DNA of 64,000 nucleotides. Source: Synergistales bacterium (lineage in GTDB: Bacteria > Synergistota > Synergistia > Synergistales > Aminithiophilaceae). A program made the translations under genes and the position numbers. Shown in pieces: positions 4,512 to 7,406 of this stretch; position 1 is the first letter of the stretch, and every line of letters begins with the position of its first letter. The stretch lies in the NCBI GenBank assembly GCA_018433595.1, contig JAHDQY010000003.1, positions 62,001 through 126,000 of the forward strand, written 5' to 3'. The notes beneath the pieces were generated by a model. It ran no database searches, had not been told where the DNA came from, and saw only the letters and a list, made by a program, of their open reading frames with translations.

Positions 4512-5798
4512 TCAGGCCTTTTCCGCGGCGGTGAAGATGTTGCGGCAGCCCGTCTCGGGCATGAGGAAGGCGCAGGCCGTCCCGAAGAGGGCGCAGGCGA
4601 AGGCGAAGGCGAAGACGGCCCGATACTGGACGAGCGGGGCGGCCTGGGGCATCCGGTCGAGGATCATGCCCATGGCCGTCGTGATGAGGGCCACGCCCAG
4701 AAAACCGACGGTGTTGACGAGGGCTACGGCCATTCCCGTATAGCGGGGGTTGTTGATCTCCTTGACGATGGCCCAGGTGAGGACGAAGGCCATGGAGGCG
4801 AAGCCGAGAACGAAAAAGAGAGGTTTCAGGATGATCTGAGGCGGCATCCCTCCCTTCCAGAAGACCATGGGCGTCAGGCAGAGGCAGAAAAGGACCGTCA
4901 TGGCCATCAGAATCGGCTTGCGCTCTCCCATGCGGTCCGAGGCGCCTCCGATCACGATGCCTCCGGCCATGGCGCCGAAGATGGAGTAGGAGACGACGCC
5001 CGCCGCCGCCGCTCGCGGGAGCTCGTAGACGGCCTGGAGGTAGGAGATCCCCCAGGCGCCGGAAAAGGCCAGGTAGACGCCGGCGACGGCGGCGTAGAAG
5101 AGCGACGAAGGCCAGATCCGCCAGTCGGCGAGGACGGCGCGGAAGCCTTCAGAGAAGGAGGGCCTGTTCCGGGTGGGAGGCGCCGGGTTGACGGGAGGCA
5201 GGCCCAGGTCGGCGGGGGTATTGCGGATGAGAAGCCAGCAGAGGGCGGCCAGCAGGAGAGAGAAGAGGCCGATTCCGGCGAAGGTCATCCGCCAGGTGAA
5301 GGCGGCCACGGCCCAGGCGAGGGGAGCCTGGGCGAGGACGCCGCCGAGGTTGCCGATCAGGTTGGTGACGCCCGAGAGAGTGGCGAACTCGCGCTCATGA
5401 AACCAGGTCGAAAGAACCTTGAGGATGGCGATGAAGACCGTCGAGACGCCGATGCCGACGAGGAAACGGCCGGCGAAAAGCAACGTCGGACCGGAGGCCG
5501 CGCCGAAAAGGAGCGACCCCGCGCCGGCCAGGGCCATGCCGAAGGTGACGGTGGCCCGGGCTCCGAGGGAGTCGGCCAGGTAGCCCACGGGAATCTGCAT
5601 GACCATGTAGGCGTAGAAATACATCGATGCCAGGGAGCCGAAGGCCGAGCCGCTGAGACCGAAGTCATCGACGAGGTTCTGGCGGACGACGCCGGCGGCG
5701 AGGCGATGAAAGAAGACGATCATGTAGGACAGAAGCATGATGGACCAGACGACCCAGCGGTAACGATAACCGCGGGGCAGGGCGCGTTCTTCAGCCAT
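4512..5798 (-). CDS. MFS transporter
   Basis: A 428-residue major facilitator with about 12 membrane helices. The helix 2-3 loop motif region reads GYLADSLGARATVTFG, close to the MFS signature, and the second-half equivalent reads GGASDRMGERKPIL. ATG 5798 follows AAGGAGAG. It lies 76 bases downstream of the arylacetate-CoA ligase in the same direction with no clear terminator between, so it is probably co-transcribed from the Trp-leader promoter. That context suggests an aromatic acid or aromatic amino acid as substrate; the sequence alone does not show it. Confidence 0.85.
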   Translation of the reverse strand: MAEERALPRGYRYRWVVWSIMLLSYMIVFFHRLAAGVVRQNLVDDFGLSGSAFGSLASMYFYAYMVMQIPVGYLADSLGARATVTFGMALAGAGSLLFGAASGPTLLFAGRFLVGIGVSTVFIAILKVLSTWFHEREFATLSGVTNLIGNLGGVLAQAPLAWAVAAFTWRMTFAGIGLFSLLLAALCWLLIRNTPADLGLPPVNPAPPTRNRPSFSEGFRAVLADWRIWPSSLFYAAVAGVYLAFSGAWGISYLQAVYELPRAAAAGVVSYSIFGAMAGGIVIGGASDRMGERKPILMAMTVLFCLCLTPMVFWKGGMPPQIILKPLFFVLGFASMAFVLTWAIVKEINNPRYTGMAVALVNTVGFLGVALITTAMGMILDRMPQAAPLVQYRAVFAFAFACALFGTACAFLMPETGCRNIFTAAEKA

Positions 5799-5874: not shown

Positions 5875-7131
5875 TTATTTGGTCCGGTTGTCGAAGACGC
5901 GGCGGGTCTTTTTCGTCTCCCGGCCCAGTCCTCCCGGGGGGAGAAGCTTGACGCGGGGCAGGGCCGAGAGGGTCATCTTCATCTTCCGGGCCAGCTCCCG
6001 GGCGGGCTCGTCTCCACCGTCGCCGGAGCGTTCGACGTCGATGTCGAGGCAGTCCTTGCCCCCCTCGGTGGTCAGGACGATGCGGAACTCGCTTCCCAGC
6101 CCGGGAATTTCGGCGATGAGCTTCTCCACGGCCGAGGGGAAGAGATTGACGCCCCGGTAGGTGATCATGTCGTCGGAGCGTCCCAGGACCCGGGAGATCC
6201 TCGGATAGGGAGAGCCGCAGCGGCATCTTCCGGGGAGGATCGAGGCGAGGTCGCGGGTTCGGTAGCGGATGAGGGGCAGCCCCTCCTTCACGAGAGTGGT
6301 GATGACCAGCTCCCCCGTCTCGCCTTCGGGGAGGACCTCTCCCGTCGCCGGATCGATGACCTCGAAATAGAAGAGATCATCCCAGTAGTGGAGCCCCTCC
6401 TGGCAGGCGCACTCGATGGCGATCCCCGGACCGTAGGTCTCGGTCATGCCGTAGATGTCGAAGGTCTTGACGCCGAGCAGCTCTTCAATGACGGCGCGGC
6501 GTCGCTCGCCCCACTGCTCCGCACCGAGAATAGCTCCTTTGAGTCGAGGCGTCAGCCCCTCGCGACGAAGGGTCTCACCCAAAAGAAGCGCCATGGAGGC
6601 CGTCCCGATCAGGTAAGAGGGGCTCATCTTCCTGAGAAAGGTCATCTGCATCTCCATGGCGACGGGCCCCGTGGGAATGGCGCAGGCACCGATGCGCTCC
6701 ACGCCGGCCTGGAAACCGATGCCGGCCGTCCAGAGACCGTAGCCGGGGGTGACCATGGCCCGGTCGCCGTCGGTCATGCCCGCCATCGAGAGGGCACGGG
6801 CCATCAATGTCGTGAAGGTCTCCACGTCTCGAGCCGTGTAGGGGATGACGACGGGTTCTCCCGTCGTTCCCGACGTGCTGTGGATGCGAACGATCTCCTG
6901 TTCGTCGGCGCAGCAGAGGCCGAAGGGATTATGGCGCCGCAGGTCGTCCTTGGTCAGAAAGGGAAGGTGCCTGAAGTCGTCGAGATCCGAAATCTCGACG
7001 GACCTCTCCAATCCCAATTTGTCCCGGTAGGCGCCGCTTTTCAGTGCCCGGTCGAGGCTTTTCCGCAAGGCCTCCAGGGTAGAGGCGCTCTGTTTCATTG
7101 CAGGACGTTCCAGCAGGTGGGTCCGTGTCAT
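5875..7131 (-). CDS. paaK: phenylacetate/arylacetate-CoA ligase (PaaK family, AMP-forming)
   Basis: A 418-residue adenylate-forming ligase of the PaaK family, which links arylacetates to CoA at the cost of ATP. The phosphate-binding loop STSGTTGEP is at about 85-93 and the adenylation motif YGMTE at about 227-231; a C-terminal ACT-like lobe follows. ATG 7131 follows GAGGAGGAAA. Transcription would come from a promoter at 7378-7406 and pass a tryptophan-rich leader peptide and two intrinsic terminators, which suggests indoleacetate or another aromatic-amino-acid product as the substrate. A role in arylacetate metabolism during aromatic amino acid fermentation is inferred. Confidence 0.88.
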   Translation of the reverse strand: MTRTHLLERPAMKQSASTLEALRKSLDRALKSGAYRDKLGLERSVEISDLDDFRHLPFLTKDDLRRHNPFGLCCADEQEIVRIHSTSGTTGEPVVIPYTARDVETFTTLMARALSMAGMTDGDRAMVTPGYGLWTAGIGFQAGVERIGACAIPTGPVAMEMQMTFLRKMSPSYLIGTASMALLLGETLRREGLTPRLKGAILGAEQWGERRRAVIEELLGVKTFDIYGMTETYGPGIAIECACQEGLHYWDDLFYFEVIDPATGEVLPEGETGELVITTLVKEGLPLIRYRTRDLASILPGRCRCGSPYPRISRVLGRSDDMITYRGVNLFPSAVEKLIAEIPGLGSEFRIVLTTEGGKDCLDIDVERSGDGGDEPARELARKMKMTLSALPRVKLLPPGGLGRETKKTRRVFDNRTK

Positions 7132-7165
7132 CGTCGTTTCCTCCTCGGCTCATCTCGGCTCAGTC

Positions 7166-7200
7166 AAAAAATAGGGGGAAAGGCTCGAGGCCTTTCCCCC
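7166..7200 (-). terminator. second intrinsic terminator in the paaK leader
   Basis: On the minus strand GGGGGAAAGG (7200-7191) pairs with CCTTTCCCCC (7183-7174), loop of 7, followed by TATTTTTT (7173-7166). It lies 35 bases upstream of the paaK start. Its 5' arm AAAGGCC (7195-7189) can instead pair with GGCCTTT (7218-7212), the end of the first hairpin plus its T tract, so the two structures exclude each other. Confidence 0.85.
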
Positions 7201-7210
7201 CTGGGAAATG

Positions 7211-7247
7211 AAAAGGCCCCGGCGTGGATGTCCCACCGCCGGGGCCC
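7211..7247 (-). terminator. first intrinsic terminator in the paaK leader (attenuator)
   Basis: On the minus strand a 13-bp GC-rich stem with one bulged base (arms within 7246-7233 and 7227-7215) is followed by TTTT (7214-7211). Its 5' arm contains CGGCGGT (7241-7235), complementary over 7 bases to ACCGCCG (7273-7267) in the last codons of the leader peptide. That alternative pairing could act as an antiterminator. Confidence 0.85.
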
Positions 7248-7262
7248 AAAAGCACAGAAGCC

Positions 7263-7340
7263 CTAGCGGCGGTTTCTATACCACCACCAGCGGCCCGTCA
7301 TATCGAAAGAATCGCATCGGTTGTACTCGGCTCGGCTCAT
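7263..7340 (-). CDS. tryptophan-rich leader peptide of the paaK operon (putative attenuator peptide)
   Basis: A 25-codon ORF starts at ATG 7340-7338 behind AGAGGAG with 8 bases of spacing and ends at TAG 7265-7263. The second half reads MTGRWWWYRNRR: three consecutive Trp codons (7289-7281) followed by Tyr, eight codons before the stop. It is too short for an enzyme, sits about 30 bases after a strong promoter and is followed by two intrinsic terminators and then paaK. The layout matches trp-type leader peptides, in which low charged tRNA-Trp stalls ribosomes on the Trp run and prevents termination. Regulation is inferred; ORF, ribosome-binding site and Trp run are directly visible. Confidence 0.82.
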   Translation of the reverse strand: MSRAEYNRCDSFDMTGRWWWYRNRR

Positions 7341-7377
7341 GTTCAGGCTCCTCTGATCACGATCGGAAACTGCCGCT

Positions 7378-7406
7378 ATCCTACGTTGCCCTGTCGAAAC
7401 TGTCAA
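7378..7406 (-). promoter_or_regulatory. sigma-70 type promoter of the Trp leader-paaK unit
   Basis: On the minus strand a perfect -35 TTGACA (7406-7401), 17 bases, then TAGGAT (7383-7378). The start point would be near 7371, about 30 bases before the leader ATG. Confidence 0.8.

Follow-up and report, generated by a model that had tools for sequence, protein, structure and literature searches.

Why a ligase gene related to paaK should lie behind a leader that repeats the tryptophan codon is the question raised by this locus, since ligases of the PaaK type are chiefly familiar as enzymes of phenylacetate degradation. The window, by which we mean the whole 64,000-nucleotide stretch of a Synergistales genome (G000 below, contig C15) that was analysed, carries on its minus strand a PaaK-like arylacetate-CoA ligase gene (418 aa, positions 5875..7131; Pfam AMP-binding and AMP-binding_C_2) and, as the second gene of the operon, a gene for an MFS transporter (428 aa, 4512..5798, minus strand; MFS_1, E 3e-46), which adjoins the ligase gene in the sister genome G021 too. 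The ligase scored 354 bits against TIGR02155 (E 6e-106), below the equivalog cut-off of 646; membership of the superfamily is clear, with PaaK as the nearest relative. A first-pass annotation had read the region upstream as a tryptophan leader with two terminators acting as a double lock on a probably catabolic operon. The results described below suggest that this region is probably a Trp-sensing ribosome-mediated attenuator that governs the expression of a tryptophan-supply operon.

The promoter, ribosome-binding site, 25-codon ORF with a WWW run and two intrinsic terminators that the first-pass annotation had listed on the minus strand are all present in the sequence, and every feature given below lies on that strand. 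The sigma-70-type promoter TTGACA-17-TAGGAT (7378..7406; TTGACA at 7406-7401, TAGGAT at 7383-7378) matches the consensus at 10 of 12 positions, and both of its hexamers are also kept upstream in both sister lineages. The Shine-Dalgarno (SD) sequence AGAGGAG (7348..7354) is located 7 nt before the ATG of the leader peptide ORF (7263..7340), whose 25 codons encode MSRAEYNRCDSFDMTGRWWWYRNRR and are followed by a stop codon; codons 18-20, at 7289-7281, are the Trp codons. No second short ORF combining an SD with WWW was found on either strand of the 64 kb, and none at all occurred in ten first-order Markov windows. The sequence, the alignment of sisters and the Markov control thus agree on a translatable leader with tandem Trp codons.

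RNA folding of the leader gave -99.2 kcal/mol (z = -5.4) and showed a 1:2 hairpin followed by the terminators T1 and T2. In the 1:2 hairpin (7264..7291, minimum free energy structure), the Trp codons GGUGGUGGU (strand 1) are base-paired to ACCGCCGC, located where the peptide ends (strand 2). This hairpin was missing from the first-pass annotation, and its addition completes a classical attenuator. When strand 1 was masked, the minimum free energy structure contained the antiterminator 2:3 (7235..7273), in which ACCGCCG at 7273-7267, already noted as complementary to the 5' arm of T1, pairs with CGGCGGU at 7241-7235, together with an inner GGGC/GCCC pairing. T1 (3:4; 7211..7247) consists of a stem-loop at 7247-7214 and a U tract at 7214-7211, as seen in the fold and the alignment, and T2 (5:6; 7166..7201) of a stem-loop at 7201-7173 and a U tract at 7171-7166. 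Computationally, therefore, mutually exclusive 1:2, 2:3 and 3:4 structures end in an intrinsic terminator. An Rfam scan of the window returned no Trp_leader (RF00513), T-box (RF00230) or riboswitch match at the gathering score.

Orthologous ligases (83-85% identity) were confined to the same genus among 188 genomes of the phylum, the next best being at most 54% identical. All sisters carry a leader of the form GRWWW[YF]..RR followed by a stop codon, with T1 and T2 at the same place. Since G021 and G022 are nearly identical at the paaK leader, three independent lineages were counted, not four. The WWW run within this motif, the 1:2 hairpin and both terminators are kept in the two sister lineages (G021/G022 and G023) while the remaining peptide diverges, residues 6-16 being diverged or unrelated; the 2:3 pairing is kept in all three lineages. 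T1 is nearly invariant in the alignment, and the T2 stem is kept by compensatory changes (GGAAAGGC/GCCUUUCC to GGAGAGGC/GCCUCUCC). The leader was absent before the distant PaaK homologues L005-L030 (45-54% identity).

The same device was found elsewhere. A full trpEGDCFBA operon is present in G000, in which trpB was identified by profile and the other genes by sequence and order. The leader of this operon encodes MNLSALTASTTRNWWWQAF.. and has a 1:2 hairpin and two terminators, T1 and T2. When the genus was searched with a pattern consisting of TGGTGGTGG and then CCRCC within 30 nt, leader-like matches occurred only before trpE, before paaK and, in sisters, before a second trpB (trpB2) with the leader ..NRFWWWPL; the few other matches appeared to lie inside genes, a judgement made without annotating every one. 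In most of the Synergistota examined, trpE follows a WWW leader, whether the tryptophan-binding protein TRAP is present or absent, and T1 and T2 were seen where these leaders were folded. An alignment of ten trp leaders gave 39 consensus pairs, nine of which had two-sided changes, a count not corrected for phylogeny. In the pattern search of 20 other genomes, chance matches dominated in the GC-rich ones, and only the trp leaders, along with a second, conserved leader of family f11, stood out. Since the WWW and hairpin device otherwise precedes trpE and trpB2, the paaK-MFS operon is placed in a tryptophan-supply regulon.

Two of these further leaders deserve description. The second trpB (L058 6561-6765, G021:C1; L074, G023:C8), a gene absent from G000, has its own WWW leader and two terminators, with GAG repeats over both the leader start and the gene start. 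In family f11 (L155, L173; G003:C76, G004:C1:267760; G002:C18:11315), a WWW leader with T1 and T2 stands before a small ORF, which is followed by a sodium:solute-symporter-like gene; this gene, named from sequence features only, is a candidate tryptophan transporter.

Because the WWW run, hairpin and terminators are conserved in sisters and the same arrangement precedes trpE and trpB2, the paaK leader is very likely a tryptophan-responsive, ribosome-mediated transcription attenuator, and the leader-peptide attenuation proposed in the first-pass annotation is well supported. Its operation would be as described below. When Trp-tRNA is plentiful, the ribosome would finish the leader, and strand 2 would be covered or paired with strand 1; T1 would then form, and T2 would catch leak-through. 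When Trp-tRNA is scarce, the ribosome would stall on the WWW codons and hide strand 1, so that strand 2 could pair with strand 3. T1 would consequently fail, and its freed 3' arm could form a helix with the T2 5' arm and loop (4:5), in which case one stall would open both terminators.

The last step corresponds to the double lock of the first-pass annotation, in which preventing T1 also frees a strand that blocks T2. T1 and T2 pair through GGCCUUU of the former and AAAGGCC of the latter, and the longest contiguous helix, the relay helix 4:5 (7186..7221), joins the T1 3' arm and U tract to the T2 5' arm and loop by 12 bp (CGGGGCCUUUUC, 7221-7210 with 7197-7186; p of about 0.003 relative to shuffled sequences). 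A competing explanation, to which we give roughly one chance in three, is a plain attenuator with redundant tandem terminators, in which T2 is a fail-safe only and the complementarity is a by-product of GC-rich arms that are purine-rich on the 5' side and pyrimidine-rich on the 3' side. Seventeen leaders were examined for helices between the T1 3' arm and the T2 5' arm; these leaders are related, so that the p-values given here are not independent tests. With T2 stem bases only, own partners compared with swapped partners gave a modest signal (permutation p 0.008), with none for paaK; with four loop bases allowed, p was 0.0008, and the leader of the window gained its 12-bp contiguous helix. 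Because the loop extension was chosen after the stem-only result had been seen, the relay is reported as partial. The better pairing of own partners argues against T2 being a fail-safe only, as does the extension of the helix into the T2 loop, which is unconstrained by the T2 stem, in G176, G182 and the trp leader of G000. On the other hand, several leaders have no excess of T1/T2 complementarity, and in paaK leaders the pairing of a shuffled T2 arm is often almost as good. In the sister paaK leaders, the complementarity is interrupted by a bulge.

Nascent RNA was also folded up to the T2 loop with strand 1 masked, mimicking a stalled ribosome. The combination of 2:3 and 4:5 was the predicted nascent fold for about half of the leaders, namely paaK of G022 and G023 and trp of G000, G023, G176, G004 and G123, which again speaks against a purely fail-safe T2; moreover, the stall of a ribosome could not by itself open the operon if T2 acted independently. 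This fold was not predicted for trp of G021, G020, G182, G009 and G019, and several trp leaders (G020, G182, G009 and G019, and G021 in the fold test) have a weak relay pairing or none. For the paaK leader of the window, 2:3 with 4:5 was predicted when the mask ended just before ACCGCC and was a minority state with two more bases masked. The double lock is thus only partly upheld: the nascent fold is predicted for two of the three paaK leaders yet is not uniform in the family, and the window's own leader has the 12 contiguous pairs but reaches the predicted fold only with less masking. According to the folding, transcription of the T2 3' arm makes T1 with T2 the more stable combination, and the relay would therefore need kinetic trapping, as in ordinary attenuators. 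On the strength of these models, we lean towards a relay that operates in part of the leader family.

The transcript also carries GAG repeats, overlooked in the first-pass annotation. A chain of GAG-NN-GAG-NN-GAG-NN-GAG with one adjacent GAG (7141..7161) overlaps the SD of the ligase gene and, judging from sequence and alignment, is a candidate TRAP site. Three GAG repeats with 2-nt spacing lie over the start codon of the leader (GAGCCGAGCCGAG, 7326..7338), in columns largely invariant in the three lineages, and are a possible TRAP contact. G000 has a TRAP (MtrB) gene (PF02081, E 8e-34; E about 1e-24 to Bacillus-type solved TRAPs), the product of which aligns over its length with the solved TRAPs and retains the motifs SEKLD and KVRG. 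Repeats spaced by exactly 2 nt number four plus one adjacent at paaK, six at the trpE start and five at the trpD start, and G000 contains the chain of four, GAGNNGAGNNGAGNNGAG, five times, three of these at the paaK, trpE and trpD starts. A TRAP gene is present in 57 of the 188 genomes of the phylum. Chains of at least four repeats were also found at trpE in G123 and at trpD in G176; none was found at trpE in the four TRAP-less genomes of a small sample, nor was there a chain at trpE in most other TRAP-bearing genomes.

The repeats might instead reflect a strong SD or coding context, a reading which is possible though the weaker of the two. The paaK chain, which sits over a purine-rich SD and overlaps GAGGAGG, has 4-5 repeats as compared to 11 in the Bacillus subtilis trp leader (PMC4027176); the chains comprise only 4-6 repeats, and those at the trpE start are partly decayed (GAGCCGAATCGAAACGAG) in the sisters G022 and G023 (L056, L057). 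Against this reading stand the exact 2-nt spacing, the coincidence of three of the five chains of four with starts in the Trp regulon, the repeats that in sisters cover the starts of both the trpB2 leader and the trpB2 gene, and the lack of chains at trpE in the four TRAP-less genomes, albeit a small sample. Judging from sequence, it is somewhat probable that TRAP acts on transcripts of the Trp regulon, and Trp-loaded TRAP would then probably add translational repression through the repeats over the ribosome-binding site of the ligase gene. Three further observations concern the repeats and TRAP. The trpD and trpB2 repeats are kept in sisters despite the decay at trpE, and downstream of a PaaK paralogue there is a GAG-NN chain in an SD-like context (L082 / L152, G023:C8:706980-706997). 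Besides, many TRAP-bearing Synergistota, among them G006, G125, G131 and G141, lacked a match to trpE at E 1e-60, and TRAP may therefore regulate uptake or other genes there.

What the operon does was approached through the relatives of its ligase. In family f8, ligase homologues of 45-50% identity are encoded directly after iorA-iorB, the genes of indolepyruvate:ferredoxin oxidoreductase (IOR); those of family f11, which are slightly closer, are not behind iorAB. The IOR alpha subunit of G000 scored 655 bits, above the TIGR03336 cut-off of 650.9. In G000, iorAB is not linked to the ligase gene, and no WWW leader was found before it. The first-pass annotation had taken the target to be probably catabolic. 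In that vein, the operon could degrade or export arylacetates and be induced by Trp starvation, sparing or balancing aromatic amino acids; the phenylacetate-degrading role of PaaK-type ligases and the possibility that this MFS transporter acts as an exporter would agree with this. We consider it unlikely, since a switch that is on at low Trp has the wrong sign for Trp catabolism and fits tryptophan supply, the only co-regulated operons are those for tryptophan biosynthesis, and related ligases are coupled to iorAB. Among the readings of the target, salvage of indoleacetate to tryptophan fits best, and we regard it as reasonably plausible. Once the genes were opened, the MFS transporter would import the arylacetate and the ligase would activate it to the CoA thioester; reductive carboxylation by IOR and then transamination would yield tryptophan. 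Such salvage would not be essential because genes for making Trp de novo are present as well. On contig C38 of G000 (L055 4226-7322), iorA-iorB directly follow a YbgC/FadM-type thioesterase gene, an arrangement which suggests a flow from Trp to indoleacetate when Trp is abundant.

Leader-peptide attenuation and TRAP are textbook alternatives for regulating tryptophan genes. Taken together, the leaders may represent a phylum-specific attenuator in which one stall opens two terminators by a five-step relay (1:2, 2:3, 3:4, 4:5, 5:6), joined in one genus by TRAP repression on the same transcripts, so that Trp-tRNA and free Trp would be read together and would gate indoleacetate salvage to tryptophan; we propose this composite only tentatively. 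If true, the presence of both on one transcript set would imply that attenuation and TRAP can be layered, with tRNA charging and free tryptophan sensed together. Linked terminators would offer a design for tight attenuation that can be put to the test. From the regulon there also emerges a likely bacterial route by which tryptophan is recovered from indoleacetate; this metabolite attracts interest in communities of the gut and of anaerobes. A literature search covering a minority of subscription papers found neither TRAP in Synergistota, nor its combination with a leader peptide, nor a tandem-terminator relay.

Among known systems, the E. coli trpL-type attenuator shares with the paaK leader the tandem Trp codons, the exclusive 1:2, 2:3 and 3:4 pairings and the intrinsic terminator; unlike it, the paaK leader has a second, linked terminator, has a ligase/transporter operon as a further target and does not match the Rfam Trp_leader. 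TRAP regulation of B. subtilis trp, trpG, trpP and ycbK resembles the present case in the TRAP gene, and the repeats at 2-nt spacing are candidates for the (G/U)AG type. At trpG and trpP of B. subtilis, the TRAP repeats lie over ribosome-binding sites, as the GAG repeats do here. Here, however, there are 3-6 repeats, not 11 (PMC4027176), and a leader-peptide attenuator is on the same transcript. The rimP leader (PMC2965389) likewise combines tandem premature terminators with an antiterminator, whereas no leader peptide or amino-acid sensing is described for rimP. In B. subtilis, the Trp T-box and anti-TRAP (PMC11255114) also combine Trp-tRNA sensing with TRAP, but they do so by a T-box and a protein antagonist, while here leader translation would act on the target transcript itself. 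Methanococcus maripaludis converts aryl acids into aromatic amino acids via IOR (Porat et al., as cited in PMC4162585), and in both cases an arylacetate-CoA ligase and IOR could run 2-oxoacid oxidation in reverse; the present organism is, by contrast, a bacterium in which a ligase and a transporter for the putative pathway are under Trp attenuation. The paaK leader thus belongs to a known kind, the ribosome-mediated trp attenuator, and what appears new are its tandem and possibly linked terminators, a probable TRAP overlay and an unusual, biosynthetic-looking target.
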